A DNA stretch of 64,000 bases from Bacteroidia bacterium (GTDB taxonomy: Bacteria > Bacteroidota > Bacteroidia > AKYH767-A > OLB10), in assembly GCA_016788065.1 (NCBI GenBank), contig JAEUTI010000006.1, positions 1 to 64,000 on the forward strand. The letters are read 5' to 3'. The translations under genes were made by a program, and so were the position numbers. How positions within the stretch are numbered: position 1 is the stretch's first letter; each line of letters begins with the position of its first letter. A model generated the notes under the pieces. That model was not told the DNA's origin. It ran no database searches and saw only the letters and a list, made by a program, of their open reading frames with translations. Positions 1 through 36,989 of this stretch are shown here, in pieces.

Positions 1-1880
1 GGTATCGCAATACTGCCTTTGGTGGTGGTGGATTACAAAAGAACACTACCGGATCTATGAATACAGCAGCTGGTTACTATTCACTCGTTAATAATACTAC
101 AGCAAATTACAATGCTGCATTTGGAGCTTATTCATTGTATGCAAATACCACAGGAGAAAACAACAATGCTTTTGGAGTAAATGCTTTAGTTACAAATACT
201 ACAGGTGCAAACAACAATGTTTTTGGTACAAATGCAGGATATTATAATACTACAGGAGGTTCGAATAACTTTTTTGGTACCGGAACAGGAACAAGTAATA
301 CTACAGGAAATAATAATACTTACATGGGTCATGAATCAGGCCGCTTAGTTACAACAGGAAGCAACAACACATTCTTTGGTTTTCAATCGGGATATTCTCA
401 AACAACTGCTTCTAACAACACATTTCTTGGATACGGGACCGGTTTTAATAATACAACAGGAACATATAATGTATTTAGTGGACATATAGCCGGTGCCGAT
501 AATACCACAGGTTCATACAACACCCTGGAAGGAGCATTCGCCGGAACCAGCAACACAACAGGTCACCGTAATACATTTATTGGTTCGGTAACCGGTAATG
601 CAAATACAACCGGTTCATGGAATACAGCAGTTGGTGTTGATGCATTGAAACTAAATCAGACTGCACATGGTAATGTTGCTATGGGATTTGAAGCGGCAAT
701 GAATTCAACAGCATCAGACAACACCATGATTGGTACACAAGCAGGTAAATTCAATACTACAGGTTCAATGAATACTTTTCTCGGATATAACTCAGGAAGT
801 GCAAATACAACAGGTTATAACAATGCCTTTGCAGGGACTCGTGCAGGAGCAGCAAATACAACAGGATATGAAAATGCCTTTTTTGGTGGATTTGCGGGCG
901 CGAACAATACAATCGGAAATGACAACTCGTTCTTTGGACGAGATGCAGGTTTCAATAACACTACCGGAAGTGGAAACACCATGATTGGTGAAATCGCCGG
1001 AAGAACATTAACAGCAGGAAATGCAAACACTTTTGTGGGACAAAATTCGGGTTTCGCAACTACGGTAGGAAACAACAATACATTTATAGGTCAGGGAGCT
1101 GGAAGTACGAATATAACAGGTTCAGACAACATTGCTATTGGTTTAAATGCACAGGTAGGAACAGCTTTAATGAATGCTACTGCAATTGGAAACAACGCTG
1201 TGGTAGCATCAAGTAATAGCATGGTATTAGGTGGTACGGGTGTGAGTGCTGTGAATGTTGGTATTGGTACTACCACTCCTACTTCCCGTTTGCACCTTTC
1301 AGCTAATTCCGGAGGAGTTATTCCAATGATTGTTCAAAACACAGTTAATACCGGACATAGTGGCATTCACTTCAGAAACGATCTCAATGTTTCGCAGGGC
1401 CAGTTTGGCTATGGAAATGGTTCTGCCGCTACCTATAGTAACAGAGTATTTGCAGGTAGTGTTACAGCTATACCTTTTGTACTTACCACAGGCGATGTTG
1501 AAAGAGTTCGCATAGATGCAACAGGTAATGTAGGAGTTGGAACCACCAATCCAACTACTGATCTGGAAGTTAATGGATTTACCAAACTTGGTTCGAATGC
1601 ACCTGCTGTGAAAATGGTAAAATTAACAAGTACAACCAATTCATTTCAGGGTGGGTCAACAAGTATACCACACGGATTAAGTATTACAAAAATACTTTCA
1701 GTATCTGTGCTTGTTGAAAAAACTGCGACTAACCTAATTCCTGCCGGAAATACAAATGTAGCAGGTGACGAATTCCATTTTCAGGTTACTACATCACAAA
1801 TATCTGTTACATTAAAATCTGCAAATTCAGCAAATCTTCTTAGCAAGCCAATCAGAGTTCTGATTACTTATGAAGAATAA
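1..1880 (+). CDS. 17-residue NTTG-repeat surface protein, 5'-truncated by window edge
   Basis: The open frame runs from base 3 without a start, so the N-terminus lies outside the window; the ATG at 57 is internal. About the first 385 visible residues are consecutive repeats of roughly 17 residues with the pattern NTTG-x2-NTF-x-G-x2-AG-x2, followed by a segment GVGTTNPTTDLEV typical of Bacteroidota proteins annotated as tail-fibre or hemagglutinin-like, and a C-terminal beta-rich domain ending VLITYEE. The 815-residue gene at 6630 has the same repeats, the same C-terminal domain and the same last seven residues, so the two are paralogs. The glycine/asparagine/threonine periodicity suggests a beta-roll or YadA-head-like fold (inference). 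A surface or extracellular adhesive role is likely but unproven. The gene converges on the response regulator, with five bases between stop codons. Confidence 0.75.
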   Translation, partial: YRNTAFGGGGLQKNTTGSMNTAAGYYSLVNNTTANYNAAFGAYSLYANTTGENNNAFGVNALVTNTTGANNNVFGTNAGYYNTTGGSNNFFGTGTGTSNTTGNNNTYMGHESGRLVTTGSNNTFFGFQSGYSQTTASNNTFLGYGTGFNNTTGTYNVFSGHIAGADNTTGSYNTLEGAFAGTSNTTGHRNTFIGSVTGNANTTGSWNTAVGVDALKLNQTAHGNVAMGFEAAMNSTASDNTMIGTQAGKFNTTGSMNTFLGYNSGSANTTGYNNAFAGTRAGAANTTGYENAFFGGFAGANNTIGNDNSFFGRDAGFNNTTGSGNTMIGEIAGRTLTAGNANTFVGQNSGFATTVGNNNTFIGQGAGSTNITGSDNIAIGLNAQVGTALMNATAIGNNAVVASSNSMVLGGTGVSAVNVGIGTTTPTSRLHLSANSGGVIPMIVQNTVNTGHSGIHFRNDLNVSQGQFGYGNGSAATYSNRVFAGSVTAIPFVLTTGDVERVRIDATGNVGVGTTNPTTDLEVNGFTKLGSNAPAVKMVKLTSTTNSFQGGSTSIPHGLSITKILSVSVLVEKTATNLIPAGNTNVAGDEFHFQVTTSQISVTLKSANSANLLSKPIRVLITYEE

Positions 1881-1885
1881 TTTGC

Positions 1886-2632
1886 TTACAACTGGTTAAA
1901 GATTTTCCGGACATCGGGTAAGCGCCTGCGCGAAACTTCGACCTGAGATTTGTCTTTCATCAATACGATCCCATCTTGTGACAGCGATTCAACAAAAATG
2001 CTGTTCACCAGATGGGATTTGTGTATTCTTACAAATCCTTTATCATTCAACAGTTCTTCATACTCCTTTAAAGTTTTGGATGCAAGATGTTTTCGTTCAC
2101 CACTTAAATAAAACATCGTATAGTTTCGGTCGCCTTCCAGTCTGATAATCTCATTGATTTTCAGAAACTGCATGCCCTGATTTCCGTGAATAGCAAGTGT
2201 AAAATCATCGTTCTTACGGGCTGCCAGATTACTTACTAAATTCTGATACTGAAGATTTGTGGGCGCAACGGAATTCCTTCGTTGCAAAAAGCGCTGAACC
2301 GCGTTGGTAAGTTCTTCCACATCAATTGGTTTCAATAAATAATCGAGTGCACTAAAGCGGATTGCCTGAATTGCATATTGGTTAAATGCTGTTGTAAAGA
2401 CAACATCAAAATTCACTTCTTCCAGTTTGTTCAACAAATCAAAGCCATTCATAAAAGGCATCTGAATATCCAGAAAAACGAGATCAGGTTTCCACTCTTT
2501 AATTTTAAAATAGGCATCCATTGCATTATGAACCACTTCAATAGAAGTAATTTCCGGGGCACTTCTTTCGAGTAAAGTCTTCAGAATGCTGCAGGCCTTC
2601 TGTTCATCATCAACTATGAGCGCTTTAATCAT
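1886..2632 (-). CDS. LytTR-family response regulator
   Basis: This 248-residue protein has an N-terminal receiver domain (about residues 1-120) with the acidic pair D8/D9, phospho-acceptor D55 in FLDIQMP and a conserved K in the LLKPID motif. The C-terminal LytTR DNA-binding domain (about 150-248) contains the typical RLEGDRNYT and RIHKSHLVN segments. It is the output protein of a two-component system; the cognate kinase gene lies directly upstream on the same strand with a 12-bp gap, so the two are almost certainly co-transcribed. In known LytTR/LytS pairs the kinase phosphorylates the regulator, which then binds direct repeats in promoters. Candidate targets are the flanking repeat-protein genes, which is inference from position only. 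Confidence 0.95.
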   Translation of the reverse strand: MIKALIVDDEQKACSILKTLLERSAPEITSIEVVHNAMDAYFKIKEWKPDLVFLDIQMPFMNGFDLLNKLEEVNFDVVFTTAFNQYAIQAIRFSALDYLLKPIDVEELTNAVQRFLQRRNSVAPTNLQYQNLVSNLAARKNDDFTLAIHGNQGMQFLKINEIIRLEGDRNYTMFYLSGERKHLASKTLKEYEELLNDKGFVRIHKSHLVNSIFVESLSQDGIVLMKDKSQVEVSRRRLPDVRKIFNQL

Positions 2633-2644
2633 GAATATCTATTC

Positions 2645-5600
2645 TTAATTTTCTTTATCATTATATACCGAGCTGTCAAGAGGCAAGGTTACAGTTACTC
2701 TGGTGCCGCCGGCATTTCCATAACTATCAAAAAGATCAGTGACTTCAATCTTCGGCCGAAATCGGGTTTGCAGTCTTACCAGTTCAATTCGTTCCTGTGT
2801 GATGCGCATCCCTTTGCTCTGATGATTCGAAACAGAAATACCACCTGCTTTAATTTCAGAAGCTTTCTTCCTGCCAATACCATTATCTGTTACAGAAAAC
2901 AACAACTGCTCATCATCAACGAGTCTGAATTCGATAGAAAGTTCACGAATACCTTCTTTATGAAGCAATCCATGCCAGATAGCATTTTCAATAAAGGGTT
3001 GAACTATTAGTGAAGGAATAAATACTTCTTCAGGATCTATCTCATCAGATACTTCAATAGTATATTTAAAACTCTGTCCGAAACGGAGCGATTCCAGTTC
3101 CAGATACAACTGAATAAATGCAAGCTCTTTATCGAGTGGTATAGAATTGAGTTCGCTGTTGTCAATTACCATTCTCAACAATCTTGAAAAATGAATCAAA
3201 TACTTCTGAGCTTCATCTACTTTCTCTTTTACGATGCACTCTTGAATAGCATTCAAAGAATTAAAAATAAAATGTGGATTCATCTGAGCCCGAAGTGCCA
3301 TCAAACGCGTTTCGGCCACTTTCTTTCCAATCTCCAGTAACACCCGCTCTCTGTCAGCAGCCTGCTGATCGAGTAATGCCCTTGCAATTTTCGTAGAACA
3401 AATAGAGGCTATGGTCGATAACAATCGAAGATGTTCTTTGGTAAAGAATCGTTTGGAAGAATGTTCAGAATCAATAACACCAATTACCTTACCTTCAAAA
3501 ACAATGGGCACCGACAACTCACTGAGTCGCATATCGTCATCAGCAATATACCTGCTGTCTTTAGTGGTGTCGTTCACTAATATTGGTTGTCCCGATGCAG
3601 CAACAGCTCCAACAATTCCTTTCCCAACAGGAATTTCCAATGGATGAACGATTTCAAAATCCTTTGGATTCTTAGGCCCGTAAGCAGCTTTCTGGACCAG
3701 CACATTTCTTTTTTCATCTAGTAAATAAACAACTGCATCCTGGAATCCCAGACGTGAAATGCAATTTCTGCATACATCCCACAGAATTTCATCAACAGAA
3801 TTTTTTCCATAAAAAGAATTGGCAAAATAGTCGATTGTTTTCTCCGATTCTCCTTTAAGAATTTGTTTCTCTCTTAATCTGATAAACCAGAAAATCAAGG
3901 CACCCATCGACAAAATAAGCAATCCTCGGAACCACCAGGTTTTATAAAAAACATATCCTACTTCAATTTGAAGATACCTGACCTCAGCATTGTTTCCGGG
4001 ACTTTTTACTTTAAAGAGATAGGTCCCACCATCTATATTAGTATAGTTTACACTGTTTTGAAGACCTTCCGTTGATAGCCAATCCTGATCGACACCTTCC
4101 AGCTGATACTGGAATTTTGCAGGATGGATCGTATGAAAACCCATACTTGCAAATGACACAGAAAAGAAATTACTTCCTGATGGAACCCGGATTGTCTGTG
4201 GGGAATTTAAATTTATCCCGGTTGCGACTTCCTTTCCCATGATTTTGAAAGAAGTGAAAAAAACGGAAGCTTCCTGTATAGAATCATTTATATGGTCAGG
4301 ATTAAAATAAGTAAATCCCTTGTGTGTTCCGAAAAATATGGTTCCGTCTGCCGTTTGCATTGACTTGGATTCACGAAACTCGTTTACGGCAAGACCATCC
4401 TGAACAAAATAATTTCGGAAGCTTTTATTGGATGGATCAAAAACAGAAATGCCATTGTAAGTCGACATCCAACCTCTGTTCTTAGAATCTATTTCAATGT
4501 TACAGATCTTATTATCGCTTAAACCATCAGCTGTTGTGTAATGCTTTTTAAAATTCATTTGCTTATCAAGCTCGTATAAGCCATTATAATCTGAAAGCAG
4601 AAACCCTCCGTTTCGGAGAGGCTTAATATTTACTTGTTCCGATAGTTTATCCTTTGTATCATCAGGGGAATGTAATTGGATAATTGAGTTTTTCTCCAGA
4701 TCCCAGATGAATGTACCATAATAATCACTGAATACAAACATCTTTCCCGGAAGGGCATTCGAAACCCGGCTCATTCTGCTAAGTCCACCAACAAAATTAT
4801 CTTTGTCAACCTCTAATACTAATGAATCTGCTTCATAATCAAAACTCATCAATTTATTATCAAATGAAAAAAATAATTTCCCGTCTGCAGTTCTGCTCAT
4901 GCTTCGGCAATCATTAATTCCTTTTAACTCAGCAATAGTAGTATCAGGAATATAAAAGTTGCTTGTTGCGGTTTTGAGATCAACCCGTACCAGAACATCA
5001 GATCTGGTACCAATCCACAACATACTGTCTTTATCGAACATCAAACCAACAATAGATTGATGTGGGAGTTTTACTTTACCATAAGTAACTTCCTCCAAAG
5101 AACTGCAGCTATGTGTAATTCTATTGTAACGAAAAAGTCCTTTCATAGTGCCAACCCATACAAACTCAGAGTTTTGTTCCGCAAAACATTCCACAGCTTT
5201 GATGCTAAAGCAAAGGCTGTCGTTTGAAGAAAAAGGCACATGCATAAATTGGGAACCTCTGATATTGGTACGGTCAACTCCATTATTGTAGGTTCCTACC
5301 CACAAAATACCATTTCTATCTTCGAACAAACCACTTATGAGGTCGCTTGATAAACCATTCGGCAGTAAAATATTGGAACGTATTTTTTGTAAGGAGAAGT
5401 CTTCCTGATTAATTCGCACCAGTCCGGTGTACTGTGTACCTGCCCAGATATACCCTTTGGAATCAGCAATCAAACGTTTTACTTCATTGAACTCTTCTGT
5501 CGAATCATTGAGTCCGGTAAAATTGATGTTGTGATTTTTTTTCGATTTAAAGTCAAAGCAAAATACACCTTTCCGAAGCGTACCCGCCCATAATCTTCCG

Positions 5601-6337
5601 TTAACATCAAATGCCATCGATGAAAAATAATCGTTATCGACAAAATATTCACCGGATTGTTTTGAATTGTAAACTACCGTCGAAAAATCAGACGTGTTCA
5701 TCTTAACAATTCCTTTTTGAGTAGAAATAAATAACATGCCGGTTTGGTCGAGTATCAGACTTTTTATCCAGGCTCTTTTAGTCGTCCAGCCCGGAACTAA
5801 TTTTTCACTGTTAAAATACCTGACCTTATGAGTATTTTTGTCATATCGCATCAAACCATTTCCGGTTCCAACCCAAACAATGTTTTTATCACTGCAAATT
5901 GCAAAAGCATTATTAATGTAAATGTCATCAGGATTAACATTTAAGAAGTTTACAGCCTTCACAATGGAATCTTTATTGATATCTAGAAAATAAATTCCGA
6001 AACCTGTTCCGAAAATAAGATTGCCTTCATCATCTGTTTCGAGGCAATGAACTAAATCAACCACATCACGTGTGGCAAAATCTGTTGGTTTATAACTCTT
6101 CGTAGTATAGCCATCATATCTGCCTACTCCATTCTTGGTGGCGAACCATATAAAACCATGCTTATCCTGCAGGATGTCATAAACCGTATTATGAATTAAC
6201 CCATTTTCATTGGTAAGGTGACTGAAACGAAACTGTCCGGGTTGTGCTTTAGCAAAGTTCGGGGAAAACACCATTGAAAATATGGATGTAAAAAGTAGCA
6301 GAAAGATACCGAGTGGGGATTTTAAATAAATTTTCAT
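2645..6337 (-). CDS. Propeller-domain LytS-type sensor histidine kinase with GAF
   Basis: A 1230-residue membrane kinase. I choose the ATG at 6337 because it opens directly into a signal peptide (MKIYLKSPLGIFLLLF), whereas the longer frame to 6394 adds 19 polar residues. A TAnnTTTG-like element on this strand (6355-6362) lies just upstream of the chosen start and inside the longer one. Domains in order: signal peptide; about 700 residues of Reg_prop beta-propeller repeats (motifs such as HGFIWFATKNGVGRYDG); a Y_Y_Y domain; one transmembrane helix (WWFRGLLILSMGALIFWF); a cytoplasmic GAF domain; a His_kinase/HATPase core with the phospho-His in NPHFIFNS near residue 1022 and ATP-binding motifs ENAIWHG and DNGIG. 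It lacks a fused receiver, so it depends on the LytTR regulator encoded immediately downstream. The ligand is unknown; related propeller sensors detect extracellular glycans or envelope signals. Confidence 0.92.
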   Translation of the reverse strand: MKIYLKSPLGIFLLLFTSIFSMVFSPNFAKAQPGQFRFSHLTNENGLIHNTVYDILQDKHGFIWFATKNGVGRYDGYTTKSYKPTDFATRDVVDLVHCLETDDEGNLIFGTGFGIYFLDINKDSIVKAVNFLNVNPDDIYINNAFAICSDKNIVWVGTGNGLMRYDKNTHKVRYFNSEKLVPGWTTKRAWIKSLILDQTGMLFISTQKGIVKMNTSDFSTVVYNSKQSGEYFVDNDYFSSMAFDVNGRLWAGTLRKGVFCFDFKSKKNHNINFTGLNDSTEEFNEVKRLIADSKGYIWAGTQYTGLVRINQEDFSLQKIRSNILLPNGLSSDLISGLFEDRNGILWVGTYNNGVDRTNIRGSQFMHVPFSSNDSLCFSIKAVECFAEQNSEFVWVGTMKGLFRYNRITHSCSSLEEVTYGKVKLPHQSIVGLMFDKDSMLWIGTRSDVLVRVDLKTATSNFYIPDTTIAELKGINDCRSMSRTADGKLFFSFDNKLMSFDYEADSLVLEVDKDNFVGGLSRMSRVSNALPGKMFVFSDYYGTFIWDLEKNSIIQLHSPDDTKDKLSEQVNIKPLRNGGFLLSDYNGLYELDKQMNFKKHYTTADGLSDNKICNIEIDSKNRGWMSTYNGISVFDPSNKSFRNYFVQDGLAVNEFRESKSMQTADGTIFFGTHKGFTYFNPDHINDSIQEASVFFTSFKIMGKEVATGINLNSPQTIRVPSGSNFFSVSFASMGFHTIHPAKFQYQLEGVDQDWLSTEGLQNSVNYTNIDGGTYLFKVKSPGNNAEVRYLQIEVGYVFYKTWWFRGLLILSMGALIFWFIRLREKQILKGESEKTIDYFANSFYGKNSVDEILWDVCRNCISRLGFQDAVVYLLDEKRNVLVQKAAYGPKNPKDFEIVHPLEIPVGKGIVGAVAASGQPILVNDTTKDSRYIADDDMRLSELSVPIVFEGKVIGVIDSEHSSKRFFTKEHLRLLSTIASICSTKIARALLDQQAADRERVLLEIGKKVAETRLMALRAQMNPHFIFNSLNAIQECIVKEKVDEAQKYLIHFSRLLRMVIDNSELNSIPLDKELAFIQLYLELESLRFGQSFKYTIEVSDEIDPEEVFIPSLIVQPFIENAIWHGLLHKEGIRELSIEFRLVDDEQLLFSVTDNGIGRKKASEIKAGGISVSNHQSKGMRITQERIELVRLQTRFRPKIEVTDLFDSYGNAGGTRVTVTLPLDSSVYNDKEN

Positions 6338-6354
6338 ACCGGGGCGGAAATGCC

Positions 6355-6362
6355 CAAATTTA
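6355..6362 (-). promoter_or_regulatory. Possible -7 element for the propeller kinase operon
   Basis: On the minus strand these bases read TAAATTTG, matching the Bacteroidota -7 consensus TAnnTTTG, 17 bases ahead of the chosen kinase start. No clear TTG element lies 19-21 bases further upstream, so it is a weak call. It supports the start at 6337 over 6394. Confidence 0.35.
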
Positions 6363-6629
6363 AGTGATTCCGTTTGATTTTCATAATGGTGCAAATCGTT
6401 AAAATCTTCCGGTTATCAAGCGGTCGGGGGATTTATCAAATGGTCAAATCAGGAAGTGCAGGGGAATTTCAGAAATCAACCTACTACCTGAAGTGATAAA
6501 ATCAAACGGTTCAAACGCTAATCAAACGGCATTTAAAAACCATAGGATAAACGGTATATCCATAGAATAAGAATTACTTGCCATCAGCCTTGGAGCGACC
6601 GTAATATTGCCAAAATAAAAATTACTGCC

Positions 6630-9077
6630 ATGTACCATATGCTTAAAGAAAGTAACAAATTCGTAAATTTAATTTTCATCGTGTGCCTTTGGTTGCTGCT
6701 ACTATTATCGGTTGCATCATTCGGGCAAAATGTAGGAATCAACAATCCAACTCCCGATGCCAGTGCATTGCTTGACCTGACTTCAACATCCCAGGGATTG
6801 CTGGTACCCAGGATGACCACAGCACAAAGAACAGCCATTGCTTCCCCTGCAACTGGTTTGCTGGTTTTTGATTCAACCTTAGGAGAATTTTGGTTTTTTG
6901 ATGGAACGATATGGAGAAAAATATTAGGTGATTCAAAGGGATGGAATACAACCGGAAATGCGGGAACAGTTGACGGTGTAAATTTTATTGGCACAACAGA
7001 TAATGTTCCCTTGAACTTTAAAGTGAACAACACCGATGCCGGCCGAATAGATCACATCAATCACAACCTTTATCTGGGACTGGTTGCAGGTGAAAACTCA
7101 ACCGGTAAAGAGAATGTTTTCATCGGAGATTCTGCCGGCTATCAAAATACAACAGGTCAGTTTAATTTAATGAGTGGCTATCAGGCAGGAAGTAACAATA
7201 CAATTGGTAACTGGAATACCATGCTTGGACATAAATCGGGATACAGTAACAGCACAGGATCTATAAATACTTTTGTGGGAGCGTGGGCAGGTATAAACAA
7301 TACAAACGGTAGTTACAATACCATAACAGGAACCAGTGCCGGATTTGGTCTCACCACAGGAAGCAATAATTCTATATATGGTGTTTATGCAGGAGCCAGC
7401 GGTTTCACTCCGAATTTTACAGGATCCTATAATTCCATATTTGGTGCCTATGCAGGAAATGCTATTACAACCGGGTTTGAAAATGTATTTATGGGAAGCT
7501 CCTCTGGCGCTGCAAACACAACAGGGAATACAAACACTTTTGTTGGAACATTATCGGGTTCTGCAAATACTTCAGGTGCGAATAATACATTTATAGGACA
7601 TTCTTCCGGAAAATTAAACACAACAGGGACGCTAAATACATTCGTAGGAAGAAATGCAGGTGTAGCTAATACTACAGGAAGTTACAATACAATTATTGGT
7701 GAAGGTGCCGCTTACAATGCCACTGCAGGTAGTCATAATACTTTTGCAGGATGGGTTGCAGGATTCAATAATCAGGGGACTGGAAATGTCTTTCATGGTA
7801 GTCAGGCGGGTTATTCAAACACTACCGGTGTGAATAATTTGTTTATGGGAACATTATCGGGATATCTGAACACATCAGGTAATAATAATATTTTTGTTGG
7901 AAGGACTTCGGGCTATAATAATATTACCGGCAACGACAATGTTTTTATGGGTAATGCTTCGGGCTCGGCAAATACAACTGCAAACAGTAATACCTTTATT
8001 GGAAACTTATCAGGCCAGGATAACACCACCGGCGACCTGAATACTTTTATTGGTGCTTCGGCAGGTTCCAACAATATTACCGGAGCACAAAATACTATGG
8101 TAGGTGCAGCGGCGGGACTTACCAACACCACCGGCGCTTTCAATGTGTTTATTGGACGATCAGCCGGCAGATTAAATACAACAGGCGTTAGCAATACTTT
8201 TCTTGGACATTCATCGGGTTTAAACAATACAACAGGAAATCAAAATACTTTTGTTGGTAGGAATTCAGGTTATTCAAACACAACAGGTACTAATAATACT
8301 ATTGTAGGTGAAGGCGCAGGGTATAATGCTACAACAGGAAGTTACACAACAAGTTTTGGATGGGCATCCGGGTACAACAACCAGGGAAATTACAATACTT
8401 TTTACGGAAGTGAGTCCGGGTATTCAAACACAACTGGAGCAAACAATACCTTTATTGGAGGATATGCAGGATACACGACTTCAACAGGTATTAGTAATGT
8501 TTTTATGGGTCGTAGTGCAGGATATGGAAATACAACAGGAAACGAAAATATATTCATTGGAGTTTCTGCCGGAAGTGCTAACTCAACGGGTACAAAAAAT
8601 TTAGGTTTAGGTACAAATACGAATGTCGGGACAAATTTAACAAACGCCAATGCAATTGGTTATGGCGCAATGACAACGATCAGTAACAGCATGGTGTTAG
8701 GAGGCCTGGGACCAAATGCTGTAAAGGTTGGTATTGGAACCAATGCCCCAACAGCAGAACTCGATGTGTTTGGCTATACTAAATTGGGTAATGATGCACC
8801 GAAAATTAGAATGAAAAAAATGACCTCGACTCTGACTGCATTAGGAAACGGGTCGACAAATTTTTTACATGGATTAGTAACCTCAAAAATATTACAGGTA
8901 ACTATTTTCATTGAAAATGGCAGCGGTAATTATTATCCGCCAAATTTTACACACATCCCCGGAGTGGAATATCAATATTACCTTACCCCATCCACAATAA
9001 CTATTCAAAATACTGCTTCAAACACCACTGTTTTATATGGACGTCCGGTGACTGTTTTAATCACCTATGAAGAGTAA
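6630..9077 (+). CDS. Secreted 17-residue NTTG-repeat protein (complete paralog)
   Basis: An 815-residue exported protein. A signal peptide (hydrophobic core IFIVCLWLLLLLSV, cleavage near ASFG-QN at about 33) precedes a segment with VGINNPTPDASALLDL and GLLVPRMTTAQR, found in many Bacteroidota extracellular proteins. From about residue 140 to 690 it is almost entirely consecutive 17-residue units of the form NTTG-x2-NTF-x-G-x2-(A/S)G-x2, roughly thirty copies, some of them degenerate. The C-terminal domain (about 700-815) ends VLITYEE, as in the paralog at 1-1880. No standard T9SS type A domain is visible, so the export route after the inner membrane is uncertain. It diverges from the histidine kinase operon across a 290-bp intergenic region, so shared regulation is plausible. 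Start could be ATG 6630 or 6639. Confidence 0.8.
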   Translation: MYHMLKESNKFVNLIFIVCLWLLLLLSVASFGQNVGINNPTPDASALLDLTSTSQGLLVPRMTTAQRTAIASPATGLLVFDSTLGEFWFFDGTIWRKILGDSKGWNTTGNAGTVDGVNFIGTTDNVPLNFKVNNTDAGRIDHINHNLYLGLVAGENSTGKENVFIGDSAGYQNTTGQFNLMSGYQAGSNNTIGNWNTMLGHKSGYSNSTGSINTFVGAWAGINNTNGSYNTITGTSAGFGLTTGSNNSIYGVYAGASGFTPNFTGSYNSIFGAYAGNAITTGFENVFMGSSSGAANTTGNTNTFVGTLSGSANTSGANNTFIGHSSGKLNTTGTLNTFVGRNAGVANTTGSYNTIIGEGAAYNATAGSHNTFAGWVAGFNNQGTGNVFHGSQAGYSNTTGVNNLFMGTLSGYLNTSGNNNIFVGRTSGYNNITGNDNVFMGNASGSANTTANSNTFIGNLSGQDNTTGDLNTFIGASAGSNNITGAQNTMVGAAAGLTNTTGAFNVFIGRSAGRLNTTGVSNTFLGHSSGLNNTTGNQNTFVGRNSGYSNTTGTNNTIVGEGAGYNATTGSYTTSFGWASGYNNQGNYNTFYGSESGYSNTTGANNTFIGGYAGYTTSTGISNVFMGRSAGYGNTTGNENIFIGVSAGSANSTGTKNLGLGTNTNVGTNLTNANAIGYGAMTTISNSMVLGGLGPNAVKVGIGTNAPTAELDVFGYTKLGNDAPKIRMKKMTSTLTALGNGSTNFLHGLVTSKILQVTIFIENGSGNYYPPNFTHIPGVEYQYYLTPSTITIQNTASNTTVLYGRPVTVLITYEE

Positions 9078-9121: not shown

Positions 9122-10939
9122 ATGCATCTTACTCAAGATAACCACCATTCAATAAATTACAGAGATTCCTGTAATGGGGCTGATATACTTTTGACCCAGT
9201 TAATTAATTCAATACTGGTCATGTCAACCTATCTAAACACTTCAACCATCTCTCAGAGCGAGTACATTACCGCTGATAATCAAGCTATTACCAAAACAAA
9301 AGCTAAAGCCAAAAATGTGGATCAGCTTGGTAAAACCATTTATTATGAAGCTGAAAAAGCAAAATCCCGGACTTCATTCTATATCAAATTATCAGTTATC
9401 TTAATCATTATCAACGCATTGCTGATAATCAACGCGTTCGCACAAACCGTAACCGTAAACAATGCCACCATTACCAATAGTTCGGTTATTACTGTTAAAG
9501 GTGCTTTATTAAGCAATGCCGGAAGTTCTTTAGATAATGATGGAACCATTGAAATCTCAGGAGATCTGACCAACAATTCAGGCGGTTCACTTTTCGGACT
9601 CAGCACCGGAACGGTTGTATTAAACGGTGGATCTCAAAATATAGCCGGTTCCTCGTCGACTGGATTCAATGACCTCACCATTGCAGGCACAGGTGCAAAA
9701 ATTTTGCAACAAGACATCAGTGTTGGAGGGAATTATGCTTCCCCCACAGGTGTATTATCCTTATCAACCCAACATTTAATTTTAAATTCACAACTACTTA
9801 CCGTTAAAAATCCATCCCCTACTGCAGTCAATCGCACATCAGGATTTATTGTTTCAGAAACTGATCCTGTATCAGGATATGGTCAGGTAAAATGGTTGAT
9901 AGGAACAGGAACCGGAAATTACATTTTCCCTTTTGGAAATGCTTTGGCTTCTTCCTACTTGCCGGTATCCTTTAACATTACTGCTGCCGGAAATAATGCG
10001 AATGGAAATCTGACTGTCGCCACCTATCCTACATCAGTTATTGCAACACCAAACAACCGGCCTTTACCAACCGGTTTAAGTTCATTAATGTCACTTTCCG
10101 GAACAGAAAATGCTGCAAATGTAGTCGACAGATGGTGGGTGATGGATGCTTCTTCATACACTACACCTCCTGTTAGTGATCTTGCACTAACTTACAGGGA
10201 TAGTGAGTGGGATGCAACCGGAGGAAGTACAAATTCAATAGTTGAAAACTTATTAAAAGCACAATCAAGTGATGGCAGTGCATGGAATCCAGTTCCGGCG
10301 GGAATTGTAAATGCCACTACCAATACCGTTATAATTAACAACGTAAGTGCTTACAATCCATTCTGGACATTAGCAGGCAGCAATGGTCCCTTGCCAATTG
10401 AACTATTAGTTTTTGATGCATCATTAAACGATAAAAACATTGTTGAACTAAACTGGGCAACTGCAACTGAAATAAACAATGATTTTTTCACTGTAGAAAA
10501 ATCACGTGATGGAATAAACTTTGAACCATTTACGATGGTAGATGGGGCTGGGAATTCCACCAGTGTACTTTACTATCAAACTGAAGACAAAGAACCATTT
10601 GAAGGCATCACTTACTATCGTTTGAAACAAACAGATTATGACGGTGCATTTACGTATTCAGATATCCGTGCAGTAAACATTCACAAAATCAACTTCGGAA
10701 CATTTGCAGTATTTCCAAATCCAGCAAGCGATCATTTCTACATTAAATTTGATGATGCTTCAGCTATTGGTGACATGCAAATTCTGGACGTAAACGGAAA
10801 GGTGATCAGAAATTATTCTTCTGCAACTTTCGAAAACAATACCGATAACATTACCCGAATTGAGCGTGATGGAATTGCACCGGGAATTTACTTTGTCACC
10901 ACTGGAAGTGGGCAGATGCAAAAATTAATCTTCCAATAA
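9122..10939 (+). CDS. T9SS type A sorting-domain protein with long N-terminal extension
   Basis: The 605-residue product ends in a clear T9SS sorting domain: FAVFPNPASDHFYI, then a beta-rich region closing GIYFVTTGSGQMQKLIFQ. Upstream of it is a segment LPIELLVFDASLNDKNIVELNWATATEINNDFF (shown here only as its type: the recurrent stalk that precedes the sorting domain in this group). The middle contains a beta-helix-like stretch of NATITNSS and DNDGTIE motifs. The only membrane segment, KLSVILIIINALLIINAFAQ, starts near residue 88 instead of at the N-terminus, so either the start is wrong (M34 at 9221 or a GTG near residue 66 are alternatives) or the protein has an unusual cytoplasmic extension. 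Function is unknown, probably a cell-surface or secreted protein. It follows the repeat protein by 44 bp in the same direction and may share its transcript. Confidence 0.72.
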   Translation: MHLTQDNHHSINYRDSCNGADILLTQLINSILVMSTYLNTSTISQSEYITADNQAITKTKAKAKNVDQLGKTIYYEAEKAKSRTSFYIKLSVILIIINALLIINAFAQTVTVNNATITNSSVITVKGALLSNAGSSLDNDGTIEISGDLTNNSGGSLFGLSTGTVVLNGGSQNIAGSSSTGFNDLTIAGTGAKILQQDISVGGNYASPTGVLSLSTQHLILNSQLLTVKNPSPTAVNRTSGFIVSETDPVSGYGQVKWLIGTGTGNYIFPFGNALASSYLPVSFNITAAGNNANGNLTVATYPTSVIATPNNRPLPTGLSSLMSLSGTENAANVVDRWWVMDASSYTTPPVSDLALTYRDSEWDATGGSTNSIVENLLKAQSSDGSAWNPVPAGIVNATTNTVIINNVSAYNPFWTLAGSNGPLPIELLVFDASLNDKNIVELNWATATEINNDFFTVEKSRDGINFEPFTMVDGAGNSTSVLYYQTEDKEPFEGITYYRLKQTDYDGAFTYSDIRAVNIHKINFGTFAVFPNPASDHFYIKFDDASAIGDMQILDVNGKVIRNYSSATFENNTDNITRIERDGIAPGIYFVTTGSGQMQKLIFQ

Positions 10940-11077: not shown

Positions 11078-14000
11078 TTACTTCTGTATCACCAACTTTT
11101 GTGTGGAACGCATTCCGCCACCGTTGATGTGCAACTGATAAACACCCGCATCAAATTTAGTAAGATCAAGTTTCTTGCTGAAGTATGCTTTTAGTTCAGG
11201 AAGTTGTTCGTTATATATAACCTGACCGAGTGCATTGGTAATTTGTAGGTTATAATCTGCAGGAGTTGCAGGAGTAAATGATACATTAAATACACCATTG
11301 CCCGGATTCGGATTAATGCTGATAAGATCATTCGCAGTGATTTCATTTATCCCAACAGTATTACAAGTATCAACTGCCATTACAGAAGTACGGGCAGTGT
11401 TGCAAGTAATTTCGGTATATACCCAGTTGTAGAAGAAATAATAATATCCCGGTGAACCGGCATTACTGTTAGTGATATTAATCAGACTGCTGTTGTATGG
11501 GTAAACTGCACCGGATGAATTCCGGAAAAGATCCACATTACCACGACATTTGATGAAATAATTAGTTCCCGGATACAGTGTGAAATTAACATTCACAGTA
11601 AGTGGGTTATTCGGACTCGCAGCCATAAATATTGTAGTATCAATAACTGTATTTCCCTGAGAATCCAAAATCTCAATCGTTCTGTTACCGGCTGAATTTG
11701 GATATACATCCAATGTGTTAACCACAACCGGAGCAAGTACATCGAAATACAAACCTCTGATATCATTTGCAGTGAAGAATGCTCCTGCACCAAATCCGTT
11801 ATTAAACTCACCTGTGAAATCCTGTAAGCCACTAGGGAAATCTTCATCCACCCAATAAGTTGTTGTAGCAGCAATATTTGGCGAATAAGTACTTCCGGTG
11901 TTCAGTAAATTTCCACCACCCGGAGCATCCCACCATCTGAGATTTCCGAATCCAGTTCCTGAAGCTGAAAGGTTTACAACACCCGGTCCGCAACGTTGTG
12001 CGCCAACAGTTGCCGGAGCATTATACGGACTTGGTGTAATTGTAATATAATTGGTTTGTGTGTAGCTGTTTGTTCCAATTGAATTGGTTACAGAAAGCGT
12101 AACTTCGTATGTGCCCGGAGTGTTATAAGTAACTACCGGATTCTGGTCAGTTGAAGTTGAAGGATTACCTCCCTGGAATGTCCATGACCAGGAAGTTGGT
12201 GAACCTGTTGAATAATCGGAATATTGCAAAGCAGTTCCTGGGCAACCAATTCTTGTATTTACAGTAAATGACGATGCAGGAGGATAAGTGCCGGGAACAA
12301 ACAGATCACTTTCCCACATACCTCTTCCATAAGTTGAAGCTCTTAATTTTCCTGATGGATAAAATACTTCAAGTTGTGTTACAATAACGTTTGGCAGACC
12401 ATTGAAGAATGGTTCCCAAACATTGATAGAAGCATCTTTATAGAACACACCTAAATCTGTTCCAATATAAATTGCATCATTTGAATTATTCACAAAGGTG
12501 ATACAGTTAACCGGTACATTTGGAATAGAAGCAGAGATGTTAATCCATGTTGCACCCATATCATTCGTCTGGAATACTTTGTTGGTATTTGAAAATCCGG
12601 AGTATGTAATCCATGCTTTATTCGGATCAGTGTTGCTGCATGCGATGCCGGTGATAGTACCGGATGGCACGTTGCTGATAGTGTTCCAGTTGGTACCGCC
12701 GTTGGATGTCATGTATAAACCGGTTGCTTTGGCAGCCCAGATCACCTGATTGTTTGCAGGTGAAACAGCGAGTGTATTAATTTGTGCTGTATTTGTGAAG
12801 TTAGAAATCTTAACCCAACCAGCTCCACCGGTAGTACTTCTCCAAACATTCACAAAACCTGCGTACAATGTGTTAGCGCTTACAGGATCCTGTAACCATG
12901 GAGTAACCCATGCTCCTGCTTCATTAATTCCGTTTGTTGCTCCGGCCCATGTTGCTCCACCATTAGTAGATCTGGCAAGTCCGCCATTCTGAGTTGAACC
13001 CCAGATATTCTGATCATTGGTACGATCAATAAAGCAAAGCATACCATCACCACCAAGAATGTGTGACCAGGTAAGGCCATTAAATTTATTGGTACCATTA
13101 TCTTGCCATCCCTGAACGAGTAAGCTTGGATTTGTTGCTGATTGTCCGAAACCATACATCTGTGCAATAGCAAGACCGTTGCTCAGGTTATTCCACGATG
13201 CACCACTGTTATCAGTAACATAAATACCACCATCATTACCCATGTAATATTTCGTGCTGTTCTCAAAATTAATATCATGGTAATCAACGTGTGTATTTCC
13301 ACCATTCTGATTCCATCCAGAACCACCATTAGTAGAGCGAAGGAAATCTGTCTGACCACCAACAACTACTTCATCTTTATTTGTTGGAGAAGCATCGATA
13401 CACAAGTCATACCATTGCTGAGTTCCTAATCCCGGAGTACTTGGTTTAGTAAAACTTACGCCGCTGTTTGTAGATTTATAAAAACCTTCCGTACCATAGT
13501 TTGGTGCAGGCAAACCAACAATCATGTAAACATAATTTGGATCTGCTTCTGTAACGGCAATTGCCATACGGCTAACATTGGTAACATTTGGCAAACCGGT
13601 TGTAGTTTTTGTCCATGTAAGACCTGCATCAGTAGAACGATAAAATTCACCACCAGCAACATAAACAGTATTTGGATCACCCGGCTTAAACTCCATGTCT
13701 TTGAATGATCCTGTTTGTACCAGTGTAAATGTTGCGGCAGCATCAGTACTACGGTAAACACCACCGGTAGTAGCTACCAGAATTATATTTCCATCATTAG
13801 GATTAACCAAAATTTTACTCATCTGGCGATAGTTCGCTGTGAAGAATGAGAGACCGGTAGTATTCCAGGTAGCACCACCATCAGTTGATTTAAGAACACC
13901 TATTGTGTAAGTATCACCAGCATCACCATCACCTGTTGCAAGATACATGATATCAGGATTTACTGGATCAAATGCAAGATCAGTACAACCAATTACCTGT

Positions 14001-14515
14001 GCTAACTGATCGGTATTGGTAGTCCATAAAATTCCGCCATCATCCGATTTCCACAATCCTCCTGCAGGAGAGCCTACGTATAAAATATCGGGATTGGTAG
14101 GATGAATACGAACGAAGTTCAATCGTCCGGCACCACCACCACCATTAGGAACCACATCGGGACCGATGAATGTCCAGTTACCTGCGTTAAAAGCACTTAC
14201 TTGCTGACGGTATTGTTTGCTTTCTTTCCAAACAGCTGCCGGATTAAAACGGGTGCCATCGGATCCAACACGTGGAGCCATGATATACTCCCAACGCTTG
14301 TATTGTTTGTAACCGGGAACTCTTGAAGGATCGGTTCCAAACTGCTGGCGATAGTTCGCTACATAGTCGTTGTAATATTCATTGAAAGACCGCTGAACTT
14401 CAAAGAAGTTCGTATTCGGGTCCTGCATTTTCTTAACCCAATCCTGTGCGAATAAGGTAGATGAAAACAGGAAACAGGCTAGCAACAATGCCAGTTGTCT
14501 GAGTGTTAATTTCAT
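11078..14515 (-). CDS. Sortilin/VPS10-like BNR propeller protein with PKD and T9SS domains
   Basis: A 1145-residue exported protein. The start at 14515 opens with signal peptide MKLTLRQLALLLACFLFSST...FAQ; the longer frame adds 16 unlikely residues. Residues about 100-740 carry many VPS10/BNR-type blades (for example GGLWKSDDGGILW, YRSTDAAATF, FYKSTNSGVSF), a ten-bladed propeller fold as in sortilins and xyloglucanase-like proteins. Next comes a PKD domain (SWSWTFQGGNPST, near 790) and an Ig-like CHU_C domain (SASGTGFGNLRWWD). The end is a T9SS type A sorting domain (ISINPNPGNGVFNV ... GVYQLHINGGGMRSTQKLVIQK). Catalytic residues cannot be assigned by eye; it may be a glycan-binding or structural surface protein. 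The gene at 25304 is a second, diverged member with the same architecture. A good promoter lies just upstream. Confidence 0.88.
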   Translation of the reverse strand: MKLTLRQLALLLACFLFSSTLFAQDWVKKMQDPNTNFFEVQRSFNEYYNDYVANYRQQFGTDPSRVPGYKQYKRWEYIMAPRVGSDGTRFNPAAVWKESKQYRQQVSAFNAGNWTFIGPDVVPNGGGGAGRLNFVRIHPTNPDILYVGSPAGGLWKSDDGGILWTTNTDQLAQVIGCTDLAFDPVNPDIMYLATGDGDAGDTYTIGVLKSTDGGATWNTTGLSFFTANYRQMSKILVNPNDGNIILVATTGGVYRSTDAAATFTLVQTGSFKDMEFKPGDPNTVYVAGGEFYRSTDAGLTWTKTTTGLPNVTNVSRMAIAVTEADPNYVYMIVGLPAPNYGTEGFYKSTNSGVSFTKPSTPGLGTQQWYDLCIDASPTNKDEVVVGGQTDFLRSTNGGSGWNQNGGNTHVDYHDINFENSTKYYMGNDGGIYVTDNSGASWNNLSNGLAIAQMYGFGQSATNPSLLVQGWQDNGTNKFNGLTWSHILGGDGMLCFIDRTNDQNIWGSTQNGGLARSTNGGATWAGATNGINEAGAWVTPWLQDPVSANTLYAGFVNVWRSTTGGAGWVKISNFTNTAQINTLAVSPANNQVIWAAKATGLYMTSNGGTNWNTISNVPSGTITGIACSNTDPNKAWITYSGFSNTNKVFQTNDMGATWINISASIPNVPVNCITFVNNSNDAIYIGTDLGVFYKDASINVWEPFFNGLPNVIVTQLEVFYPSGKLRASTYGRGMWESDLFVPGTYPPASSFTVNTRIGCPGTALQYSDYSTGSPTSWSWTFQGGNPSTSTDQNPVVTYNTPGTYEVTLSVTNSIGTNSYTQTNYITITPSPYNAPATVGAQRCGPGVVNLSASGTGFGNLRWWDAPGGGNLLNTGSTYSPNIAATTTYWVDEDFPSGLQDFTGEFNNGFGAGAFFTANDIRGLYFDVLAPVVVNTLDVYPNSAGNRTIEILDSQGNTVIDTTIFMAASPNNPLTVNVNFTLYPGTNYFIKCRGNVDLFRNSSGAVYPYNSSLINITNSNAGSPGYYYFFYNWVYTEITCNTARTSVMAVDTCNTVGINEITANDLISINPNPGNGVFNVSFTPATPADYNLQITNALGQVIYNEQLPELKAYFSKKLDLTKFDAGVYQLHINGGGMRSTQKLVIQK

Positions 14516-14560
14516 AAGTAAGTTGATTTGGAGTTTATGAGTTGTATTAGGTTCAATTTT

Positions 14561-14591
14561 CAAATGTAGTACTATAATTGAAAATTAGCAA
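14561..14591 (-). promoter_or_regulatory. Promoter for the sortilin-like gene
   Basis: On the minus strand TTG (14591-14589) is followed after 20 bases by TACATTTG (14568-14561), a full match to the Bacteroidota TTG/TAnnTTTG promoter. The inferred start of transcription gives a leader of about 40 nt before the ATG at 14515, again favouring that start codon. Confidence 0.65.
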
Positions 14592-17123: not shown

Positions 17124-18011
17124 ATGTTACTATTGTCGCCACAAAATTTCCCCGATTATGAGCTCATCGATGCGGGTGATTTCGAAAAACTGGAGCGTTT
17201 TGGAAAGTATATTACGATTCGTCCCGAGCCTCAGGCTGTCTGGGGCAAGGTGTTGACTACCAAGGAGTGGGAAAAGCAGGCACATGTAAGGTTTATACCG
17301 AACTCAAGTTCTTCGGGAAGCTGGAAAAAGTTCAAGGAGATGCCTGATCAATGGAAGATAGCATATGATCTGATTGGGGAGAATGGAAGCAAGCAGAAAA
17401 TGGTACTTCGCCTGGGATTAACTTCATTCAAACATGTGGGAGTTTTCCCTGAACAGGCAGTAAACTGGAATTATATTTACAATGCGGTTTCAAGTCTGAA
17501 AATAAACAAGCCCAAAGTACTTAATCTTTTTGCATACACGGGAGGTTCCACACTTGCAGCACAAGCAGCAGGTGCCGATACCACACATCTCGATTCTATA
17601 AAACAAGTGGTTACCTGGGCACGGGAAAATATGGAGCACAGCAAACTGGAAAATATCCGGTGGATTGTTGAAGATGCTTTAACTTTTGTGAAACGCGAAG
17701 TTAAGCGCGGTAAAAAATATAACGGAATCATTTTGGATCCGCCAGCATACGGTCATGGTGCCAATGGTGAGAAGTGGAAACTGGAAGAACAAATTCAGGA
17801 AATGACACAATTGGTAACATCACTTCTCGAACCTGAAGATCACTTTTTATTACTCAACACCTACTCTTTAGGTTTCTCTTCTGTAATCATTGAAAATCTT
17901 TTAAACGAAACACCGCTTCGAAATACTTTTGAAACCGGAGAACTTTTTCTTCATGCAACTAGTGGGGTTAAGTTGCCACTTGGGGTGTTTGGACGGAGTA
18001 AAATTAGGTAG
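17124..18011 (+). CDS. Class I SAM-dependent methyltransferase (RlmI/RlmK-like)
   Basis: A 295-residue methyltransferase. The ATG at 17124 is chosen over a TTG three codons earlier, which is part of the promoter. Motif I is VLNLFAYTGGSTLAA (about 127-141), followed by the acidic residue of motif II in HLDSIK and by motif IV DPPAYGHG (about 203). These match the PF10672 group related to RlmI/RlmK 23S rRNA methyltransferases, though it lacks an N-terminal PUA domain of usual length. The likely substrate is RNA, but the exact target base cannot be inferred. The stop codon TAG coincides with the first unit of a 12-bp tandem repeat array. Confidence 0.85.
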   Translation: MLLLSPQNFPDYELIDAGDFEKLERFGKYITIRPEPQAVWGKVLTTKEWEKQAHVRFIPNSSSSGSWKKFKEMPDQWKIAYDLIGENGSKQKMVLRLGLTSFKHVGVFPEQAVNWNYIYNAVSSLKINKPKVLNLFAYTGGSTLAAQAAGADTTHLDSIKQVVTWARENMEHSKLENIRWIVEDALTFVKREVKRGKKYNGIILDPPAYGHGANGEKWKLEEQIQEMTQLVTSLLEPEDHFLLLNTYSLGFSSVIIENLLNETPLRNTFETGELFLHATSGVKLPLGVFGRSKIR

Positions 18012-18179
18012 TTAATTAAGTGGTTAATTAGGTAGTTAATTAGGTGGTTAATTAGGTGGTTAATTAGGTGGTTAATTAGGTGGTTAATTAAGTGGTTAAT
18101 TAGGTGGTTAATTAGGTGGTTAATTAGGTAGTTAATTAGGTAGTTAATTAAGTGGTTAATTAAGTGGTTAATTAGGGGA
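18003..18179. repeat. 12-bp tandem repeat array starting in a stop codon
   Basis: Fourteen full 12-bp units run from 18012 to 18179, consensus TTAATTAGGTGG, preceded by a 9-base partial unit at 18003-18011 that includes the TAG stop of the methyltransferase gene. Variation is limited to two positions (GG/AG and GG/AG at the unit end). As 12 is a multiple of three the array is open on the minus strand as a run of LINHLIN residues, but there is no protein evidence for that frame. The copy number is expected to vary between strains. Confidence 0.95.
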
Positions 18180-18194
18180 ATCATCAAATCACCA

Positions 18195-18454
18195 AATCAG
18201 CACATCAGCACATCAGCACATCAGCACATTAGCACATTAGCACATTAGCACATTAGCACCCCCTCGACTTCGCTCTGGGCAGTGCTTGCCCCTTTCCACT
18301 GGCCACTAATGTGCAGTCACATTTTTATTTCTCAGGAACAAAAAATCAGCACATCAGCACTTTTCGACTTCGCTTAAGGCACCGCATCAACACATCGACT
18401 TCGCTCAGGGCAAGCATTAGCACATTAGCACATTTGCACATTTGCACATCAATT
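18195..18454. repeat. 9-bp repeats and dispersed TCGACTTCGCTCAGGG motifs
   Basis: From 18195 to about 18257 a 9-bp unit alternates between AGCACATCA and AGCACATTA, and it reappears at 18347-18360, 18413-18447. Between them are three copies of a motif close to CTCGACTTCGCTCAGGG (18261-18279, 18363-18380, 18393-18411). A fourth copy occurs in reverse at 41367-41387. There is no gene in this stretch, which separates the convergent methyltransferase and acyltransferase genes. Confidence 0.85.
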
Positions 18455-32642: not shown

Positions 32643-35600
32643 TCAACGCTTTACCACAAGTTTCATATACATCGGCTCAACTTTTTCATTACTTAGTTTA
32701 ACCTGATACATTCCGGAAGCAAATGGCGATGTGTCCACGGAATATCCCGAAGTAATTTCTTGCTTCTCAAACACCACTCTGCCATTCATGTCTGTTAATG
32801 TAAAATCATAAGCCATTTCACCATCGAAATAAACCGTAAATTCATTGGAAGCGGGATTAGGAACTCCGATCAGGCTGTTTTTATCGGTTAGCATCACAGC
32901 TACTATTTCAGAATAAGAACTTCTTCCATCAAAGTCGGTTTGTTTCAACCGGTAATAGGATAATCCCCGATATGGCTCGGTGTCGGTGAATGCATACGAC
33001 AATTGATAATTACTATTGCCGGCTCCATCCGTTATTCCGGCGGTTTCAAATTCGATACCATTTTTACTTCGTTCAATCGTAAAATAGTCGTTGTTGATTT
33101 CGGATGCGGTAATCCAATCGCATCTCACAACTTTATTTTCAACAGGTTTTGCAGTGAACGATAATAATTCAATTGGCAATGGAGAAACCTGACCGAGTTT
33201 TAAAGTAAACATGTCCATTGGTGATCCATTAGCAGTGATAGAAAATGTGGGAGGGAAAGGATCGAAATCAACGGTAGTGCTAAAATTACCGGAAGCATAA
33301 ACATTAAACAAACTATCGACTGCTACGCTTACGATCTCATCATTACCGGCACCACCAATATTATAAAACCAACATGTGCTGTCGGCAACTCGCAGGCTTA
33401 GTATAAATCCATCGTTCAACCCATTGGATGTAATATTTTGCGTCTGCGAAATAAATGGATTCATATCAATGGTTCCACCAAAAACTCCGGAGACATAAAT
33501 GTTCTCAGCAATGTCTTTTGTAATTCTGGAAGGCTTATCGTTGCCGGTTCCTTTCAGGTGTCCTGTCCACAAGTGATTACCATTCGGATCGAGCTTTTGA
33601 ATGTAACCATCATTATTTGTTGCCCCTCCTGAAGTTGTCAAATTATAGATACCGGGGCCGGGATCAAAATCGGCTGTGAATTTAAAATATCCGGTATGAT
33701 AAACATTATTTGAATTATCAGTTATAATATCGACACCAACATCATCAGAAGCGCTTCCTATTGATTTTGCCCAAACAAAATTTCCAGCACTTGTTAATTT
33801 TAGCACGAATATGTCTGCAACCGCATAAGATGTCATGTTAAAAACACCGGCATTGGGATCAAAATCAGCGGTACCGGAATAGTAACCGGTTACAAGTACG
33901 TTATTTGCATTATCAACAGTGATTCCATTTCCGATATCATAAGCGGTTGCAGAACCAATTGTTTTTGCCCAACTAATTACACCGGTTGTATCCAATTTCA
34001 AAACGAAAATATCACTCGTATTTCCTGCAGAAACCATATTAAACGTTCCTGAATTCGGATTAAAATCGACAGTCCCTTTATAATTCCCCGTTAAATAAAT
34101 CATATTATCCTTCACGGTAATTGCAGACACTTCTTCATCATAGGTACCTCCAATTCTTTTTACCCATACCACTTGATTACTATTATTCATCTTCATGATA
34201 AAAATATCTTTCCCGCCGGCTGAAGTTCTATTTATATCTGCGTCAATATGACTTTTAGCAAAATTAGCTGTTTGCTCAAATGTACCTGTAATGTATTTAT
34301 TCCCTTGTGCATCACGGCAAACGGATGTTACCTCATCGTCGCCGGGACCACCAAATTCATAGGAGGAAATCCCACCACCACCAGTTGAATTGGTCAGAGA
34401 AATCATAGCGTTTTTGTTTTGAAATCCCCACAGAATTCCTCTTGCTGAAGATCCTAAACTATAACCTCCTGCAAATAATTGTGTAGATATGTACTTCGCT
34501 GATGAGAGATTTGCAACCACACCGGCCGATCCAATGCTGTGTGACCAGATATGGTCGAGATTCAGATTCAATCTCAAAGTAAAAATATCTTCTGCTCCCT
34601 TCGAAGTCTTATAGCTGGTTGCGGCGGAACCATCGAAATCAACTGTCTGCATGAATTCCCCGGTGAGATAAAGGACGCTACCAAGACCGATTGCAATATC
34701 ATATATGATCTCCTTATCTGGTCCGGCTAAAACACAATGATCGTAATAATCGCCATTAGCAGTTAATTTTAAAATCAAACCTTCATCTTCAGAAAGCGTT
34801 CCATAATATGGTGGAGTGGCAGTTACGCTTACTACTCCTGCATTTGGATCAATATCTTTGGTATATCTAAAACTGGTTGCCATCAGCACATAAGTGGTTG
34901 CTCCCTGTGAGACCTCCAGATTAATCTCAGGGTACCATGCGTTTTGTGGAAATGTTTTAGACCAAACAAAAGCGCCTGCAGATGACAGTTTCAGGATGCA
35001 GGGAACACCATTCACTGTATTCATTAAACTGGTGCCCGCGCCAATATCAAAATCAACATTCCCACCGAATGAATACATGGCAACATAAACATTTTCGTAG
35101 GCATCTGTTTTTATATCCTGCGGCCATAAGCCTGCAGGAGTTCCTATGACACCACCACCCCACACAAATGTTCCGGTACTGGAAAGTTTTACAACATAAA
35201 TCGCTCCATTGGTATTTGCATTTACTGCCACTGTTGCTGCACCGGGATCAACGTCCATATCACCTCTAAGCCAACCGGTGACAATAATATTATCAAGATC
35301 ATCGACTACAACTGCCTCCGGATAATTACTGTCGGTAATAGTTGGAAGTGTTGAGGTTGTACGCAGTTGCTTAGCCCAGGTAAATGCACCGGCAGCAGAA
35401 ACTTCCATTATAAATGTATCACTAAAAGCCCCGGTTAATACCGTGAAAGTAAGAACGGGAGCATCAAAATTTATATCTACGGAATTAAAAAATTCACCAG
35501 CTACAATTACGTTGTTATTTATGTCGAGATCGAGCGCTTGTATATTCATGCTTTGACTGGCAGCACCAAATTGTTTTGACCAAACATATCCTCCATTCGT

Positions 35601-36885: not shown

Positions 36886-36989
36886 ATTGTTCAGAATCAA
36901 TTTGCAAAATAACAAGGTATTTTTCGATACTTCAACTACTAAATGTGGTAATAATAACGATGACTTGCCGCAGCTCCTTCATCCCGCCA

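Follow-up and report, generated by a model that had tools for sequence, protein, structure and literature searches.

Organisation of the locus

The window analysed here covers the initial 64 kb of contig C24 (JAEUTI010000006.1) of a 4.26 Mb Bacteroidia bacterium genome (GCA_016788065.1, hereafter G000). It opens with two genes for putative surface fibres, Adh1 and Adh2. Between them lie a LytTR response regulator (RR2) and a sensor kinase (K2), and Adh2 is followed by a companion protein carrying a type IX secretion system (T9SS) sorting tail (Table 1). RR2 combines a receiver with a LytTR domain and K2 supplies the His_kinase partner (Pfam), as in a LytTR two-component system. The true start of K2 is probably Met20, because the orthologue in a congener (G001) begins there.

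The 5′ half of Adh1 lies on another contig, C12, whose end overlaps the first 141 bases of the window exactly. Joined across the two contigs, Adh1 encodes 897 residues with no internal stop. The length of the overlap (141 bp) suggests that the split is an assembly-graph break at the repeats. Upstream of Adh1, C12 carries a second propeller kinase (K1), a second LytTR regulator (RR1) and a globin. In G001, K1, RR1, the globin and Adh1 share a single contig, which stops within the repeats; K2, the divergent Adh2 and the companion are on another, which stops within K2. This gene order points to two surface-fibre systems at the locus, each with its own kinase/LytTR pair, RR2-K2 being the pair that adjoins Adh2. 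The first-pass annotation of the window had placed the two paralogs either side of one two-component system; RR2 and K2 do stand between them, but Adh1 has a pair of its own.

Both fibres are built from 17-residue repeats, as had been noted from the sequence. Self-identity at a lag of 17 residues is 0.42 in Adh1 and 0.41 in Adh2, compared with maxima at any lag from 1 to 40 of 0.18 and 0.16 among 1000 shuffles; Tandem Repeats Finder also detects the 51-bp DNA period in the left gene. Approximate counts with a regular expression give 27 units in the joined Adh1 and 24 + 7 in Adh2. In Adh1 the repeats are followed by shaft modules with a VGIGTTxP motif and then by the C-terminal domain. This domain is indeed common to both proteins (41% identity over ~125 residues), and both end in VLITYEE. 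Adh2 has 781 residues in G001 and 815 in G000, with two separate gaps of exactly one 17-residue unit in the alignment; the anticipated length variation is thus seen as a difference between two species in the single gene pair compared.

Table 1. Features of the fibre locus (window coordinates unless a locus is named).
Feature	Position	Strand	Remarks
Adh1, left fibre	3..1880	+	3′ part only (whole gene 897 aa); frame open at the window start
Adh1 C-terminal domain	about 1503-1877	+	within left fibre gene
RR2, receiver + LytTR response regulator	1886..2632	-	Pfam Response_reg 7.5e-23, LytTR 1.5e-16
K2, sensor kinase	2645..6394	-	Reg_prop propeller, Y_Y_Y, GAF, His_kinase
Direct repeat pair, period 20 bp, GTTATCAAGCGGTC / TTTATCAAATGGTC	6412..6445	+	candidate regulator site; similar in G001
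Direct repeat pair, period 20 bp, ATCAAACGG / ATCAAACGG	6501..6529	+	candidate regulator site; adjoining block almost the same in G001
Adh2, right fibre, 815 aa	6630..9077	+	hydrophobic leader, N-domain, repeats, C-domain
Adh2 N-domain	about 6726-7050	+	after hydrophobic leader
Adh2 17-aa units, about 30	about 7068-8600	+	
Adh2 C-terminal domain	8700-9074	+	
Companion protein with T9SS sorting tail (Por_Secre_tail)	9122..10939	+	family recurs beside N-domain fibre genes
Sortilin/PKD/Por_Secre_tail protein	11078..14563	-	after companion in G000 and G001
41-aa open reading frame	L031:1186-1311 (G000 contig C12, off window)	-	

Relationship to known fibres and predicted fold

Neither Adh1 nor Adh2 matches a Pfam or NCBIfam model, and comparison of the whole Adh2 sequence with the PDB gave nothing meaningful. 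A profile of the C-terminal domain matches structures of the mosaic adhesive trimers (MAT) of Bdellovibrio, 8ond (Bd2133) with E 1.1e-7 and 8oml with 1.1e-3, and with them the MAT capping-loop motif on β-helix edges. The fibre of G035, a genome of another family, has the same N- and C-domains without the 17-residue repeats, and matches three MAT chains with E 2.7e-10 to 7.7e-8 (8ol4 2.7e-10, 8ond 8.5e-10).

Compared with the MATs of Bdellovibrio bacteriovorus of the NS74 type, as described in the published account (PMC10769870), Adh1 and Adh2 share a leader and a conserved N-domain, and their long shaft is predicted to be β-helical as well. They also share the capping-loop motif VGIGTxxPTxxLEV, found by profile in Bd2133, and a C-terminal tip that replaces S74. 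That account has 13 of 21 MATs ending in Peptidase_S74. Pfam detects no Peptidase S74 chaperone domain in Adh1 or Adh2, and Peptidase_S74 forms the end of paralogs in G000 itself and in G001 and of a Niastella soli fibre. Our fibres differ from the Bdellovibrio proteins in their 17-residue NTTG shaft repeats, Bacteroidota host, different tip, own kinase/LytTR pair and T9SS companion. The Bdellovibrio N-domain is β-rich, about 130 residues long and follows a signal peptide; ours, which follows the leader, is a possible counterpart. Shafts of 17-residue repeats are found in G000, G001 and one locus of G396, other modules in G035, G018 and one locus of G161, so the shaft appears exchangeable between relatives. 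In kind, these are ordinary MAT/tail-fibre-like fibres. From sequence and fold, the most fitting view of Adh1 and Adh2 is that of MAT-like fibres whose shafts can be swapped, Bacteroidota relatives of non-S74 MATs and of phage tail fibres.

The AlphaFold2 monomer model of Adh2 (four sequences) has a mean pLDDT of 61; most of the shaft lies at 60-80 and much of it at 70-80. In the model each 17-residue turn of the shaft contains one short and one long strand. VIA-align superimposes the model on phage tailspike β-helices with Z up to 21.9 (287 residues, r.m.s. deviation 2.5), and on pyocin/AP22 fibre tips over residues 709-814 with Z about 6, within the range of common arrangements. Foldseek alone gave eight viral matches and no PDB match below E 0.001. 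No YadA head is among the listed fold-comparison matches, an absence that excludes nothing. The shaft is likely to be a tailspike-like β-solenoid. A distinct 17-residue solenoid unrelated to YadA had been proposed; period, predicted fold and the lack of a Pfam match agree with this, but the repeat is not unique. By sequence comparison phage tail fibres have it too, those of Pelagibacter, Roseobacter and Prochlorococcus phages among them: PHROG virion/tail families 6002, 4636 and 23837 match the repeats with E 1e-31 to 1e-42. Among 50,697 phage records 25 match Adh2, every one below 60% identity. None of the three proteins checked against anti-phage families matched any.

Conserved neighbourhood of the fibre genes

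The fetched loci contain 45 N-domain genes (39 without G001; 33 without G000 and G001), which we compared with 261 genes in 20 stretches picked arbitrarily as controls. The companion adjoins 16 of the 45; leaving out G001 the count is 12/39, against 3/261 controls (p 1.5e-9), and outside both genomes 8/33 (p 1.4e-6). A response regulator lies within three genes of 16/45, or 12/39 without G001, against 25/261 controls (p 8e-4). Repeat genes lacking the N-domain have the companion in 0/18 cases and a regulator in 1/18. Within G000, the four best companion matches, the sole ones covering most of the companion, all adjoin fibre genes.

Full or near-full-length C-domain genes number 16: five from a search of 42 genomes of the order (two in G000, one each in G001, G018 and G035) and 11 from a class-wide search of 395 genomes. 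A LytTR regulator is near eight of them (G000 2, G018 1, G035 1, G396 2, G161 2). The G001 gene is a ninth with the reservation that the kinase adjoins it and the contig then ends. The G035 order is kinase, regulator, globin, a second globin-like gene and fibre, and in G018 three opposite-strand genes separate regulator and fibre. In both G161 loci and one of the two in G396, all four genes (propeller kinase, LytTR regulator, fibre and companion) fall within 12 kb; at the other G396 locus the fibre is accompanied by a LytTR regulator. The regulators of G018 and G035 form one clade with RR1 of G000 and G001 (support 99/98). A look-alike of the Sortilin/PKD/Por_Secre_tail protein also follows a companion in G035. 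Elsewhere in G000, a further LytTR pair (L046:345-6968, contig C41) is preceded by a 390-residue protein matching the fibre N-domain seeds and by a metalloprotease-like protein.

Direct repeats in the promoters

The interval between K2 and Adh2 (6395-6629), where a search for direct repeats had been suggested, contains the two 20-bp-period pairs of Table 1, and lag-20 arrays stand upstream of the left gene, Adh1, in both G000 and G001. Three regions in each of these two genomes (that upstream of K1, that before Adh1 and the K2-Adh2 interval) have 20 bp as their best-scoring lag in the range 10-30, and 0 to 8 of 500 shuffles reach this score in the six regions. The RR1-globin spacer gives no lag-20 signal. 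Across the modules, 7 of 12 promoters pass the lag-20 threshold compared with 1 of 92 control spacers (p 3e-7). Outside G000, in four further genomes, the figure is 4/9 (p 1.5e-4), these nine having been examined after lag 20 had been noticed.

A published account of LytTR sites describes 9-bp direct repeats 11-13 bp apart, a period of 20-22 bp (PMC6193735). The spacing found here fits, and we count it in favour of a link to the regulators. Like the LytTR regulators covered there, ours have a LytTR domain and direct repeats upstream of promoters; they differ in forming a two-component pair with a propeller kinase and in having up to four half-sites. From 23 half-sites in eight hand-picked arrays, the half-site is about G[TC]CA[TA][CT]C[GA]CT[CA]A, of which the CT and the final A served to pick the half-sites. 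Written as about GTCATYCRCTMA, it is unlike the broad LytTR consensus.

Bacteroidota promoters carry a -7 element, TAnnTTTG, which we scored as this sequence or a one-letter variant. The distance from half-site to -7 element is 36 bp in both arrays before Adh1 (G000 and G001), the globin and fibre arrays of G035 and the fibre array of G018, and 35 bp where the promoter is that of the kinase (G000/G001 and G035). In two families, repeats of RR1-type modules stand 35-36 bp upstream of the -7 element; the kinase promoter of G018 has no -7 element at that distance. A composite pattern occurs without mismatch twice in the 4.26 Mb of G000 and twice in G001, always before Adh1, and is absent with 0-1 mismatch from G003, G010 and G027. 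Two other hits were seen, one on contig C52 of G000 (one mismatch, intergenic, before an unrelated gene) and one on contig C1 of G035 (no mismatch, inside a coding open reading frame). Both appear to be chance hits, and so do those with two mismatches, whose frequency does not exceed that of the control.

Two other candidates were rejected. The shared 11-mer CAAACGGYTMA does not by itself speak for a regulon motif, with 12 sites in G000 and 15 in the reversed control; the other 17 sites (nine in G000, eight in G001) have no 20-bp partner above 8/14. Nor is lag 20 a general LytTR signature in G000: of 104 intergenic regions at its loci, 7 pass for lag 20, 8 for lag 21 and 7 for lag 14. At a G396 locus (L147:307-5748, contig C110), a LytTR regulator and a 17-residue-repeat fibre diverge like K2 and Adh2, and an exact 14-bp promoter repeat has a lag of 19.

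Small genes accompany the arrays. An open reading frame of 41 codons, with one hydrophobic stretch, separates the two arrays before Adh1; it is kept in G001 and followed by a strong terminator-like hairpin of 14 pairs and a T-run. G035 has a 32-codon frame in the corresponding place. The second array stands directly before Adh1, with its -7 element 58 bp before the start codon, and one G035 array likewise directly precedes the fibre gene. Two more composite copies in G035, each with one mismatch, stand before genes for small membrane proteins (70 and 66 residues), after which comes a companion gene. At L169:7023-7704 these two proteins are both C-terminally hydrophobic; a kinase/LytTR pair and a remnant with the end RILITYEE lie upstream of them. 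Feedback of the small proteins on the kinase is only an idea.

A model for the locus and its alternatives

The reading we favour, and consider probable, is that the locus holds two fibre systems, in which MAT-like fibres are each driven by their own kinase/LytTR pair through 20-bp repeats. The propeller histidine kinase would pass phosphate to the LytTR regulator, which would bind the tandem 20-bp-period repeats lying ahead of the fibre promoter and, in pair 1, ahead of the kinase promoter as well. Through these repeats the regulator probably turns on expression of the fibre. The fibre, presumably a trimer, would consist of an N-terminal leader, the conserved N-domain, a long β-solenoid shaft of 17-residue turns and a small β-rich C-terminal tip. 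It would be displayed on the surface, probably alongside the T9SS-secreted companion, and the tip may contact a partner surface or glycan. Control of fibre expression by the kinase, as suggested in the first-pass annotation, gains support as an inference from the conserved neighbourhoods and the repeats, with the amendment that each fibre has its own pair.

Several observations weigh against this reading. Five of the 12 module promoters fall short of the lag-20 threshold, in one G396 promoter the exact repeat comes at lag 19 instead, and the K2/Adh2 promoter lacks a -7 element at 35-36 bp. The genome-wide rarity of the composite pattern is partly built in, because half-site and composite were derived from these promoters. 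Outside the genus, a regulator within three genes is found for 7/33 N-domain genes compared with 25/261 controls (p 0.05), and RR2 groups weakly with a G396 regulator (86/71). The MAT matches depend mostly on the VGIGTxxPTxxLEV loop. Confidence in the structure model is modest, with a pLDDT of about 60 at the C-terminal tip, and a separate fold of the C-terminal 315 residues was poor and not used. Pfam finds no T9SS sorting tail in either fibre that would account for its export.

The fibres might instead be constitutive, the kinase/LytTR pairs being neighbours by cluster history whose targets lie elsewhere, perhaps no more than their own genes and the small ones close to the globin. This would account for the seven of 16 C-domain genes without a LytTR neighbour, for companion adjacency being stronger than regulator adjacency, and for the first array of the globin-Adh1 spacer, which serves the separate 41-residue unit closed by the hairpin. 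The arrays directly before Adh1 and the G035 fibre gene argue against it, and we consider it rather unlikely.

Identity with YadA-type trimeric autotransporter adhesins with a stretched head repeat is suggested by the resemblance of NTFxG to the SVAIG core of YadA heads and by a paralog matching YadA_head with E 0.015, below the family cut-off. We rejected this membership as very improbable: Pfam finds no YadA family in Adh1 or Adh2 up to E 10, the period is 17, and the C-terminus is different, the paralogs ending in Peptidase_S74 and Adh1/Adh2 in their own C-domain. Prophage remnants, that is tail fibres stranded in a bacterial chromosome, would explain the PHROG and phage-record matches, since the repeat unit is the same. 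We regard them as a far-fetched source, given the leader and N-domain, the T9SS-tailed companion, two-component genes and globin around the fibres in place of a phage neighbourhood, and the conservation of these surroundings across families.

More tentatively, the two-system reading could be extended to a dedicated Bacteroidota fibre-display system. Here, the kinase/LytTR switch would turn on a MAT-like fibre through 20-bp sites at a fixed distance from the -7 element, co-producing membrane proteins of 32-70 residues (possibly for kinase feedback) and a T9SS companion serving as carrier or anchor for the fibre. If true, the module would serve contact sensing and attachment in general, its shaft and tip being exchanged between lineages. 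Propeller-kinase/LytTR pairs are common in Bacteroidota; to our knowledge, few have known targets. Our analysis proposes a target, a candidate site and an exact site spacing. It also extends MAT-like predator adhesins to Bacteroidota, as a hypothesis, and puts forward a T9SS partner gene that may bear on how fibres of this kind get to the surface and stay attached there. We found no description of the conserved regulatory design and companion in the open-access literature, although an earlier one may exist.

Other features of the window

A secreted protein of 1151 residues (32646-36098) is encoded beside two genes at 36241-39479, one resembling a response regulator and the other large and of kinase size; this looks like the theme of the fibre locus again. 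A 12-bp unit is repeated about 14.6 times at 18002-18259, followed by an array of an 8-bp unit. Between 44000 and 64000 the G+C content drops to 0.28-0.36 and short genes are numerous, making this part of the window a possible island.

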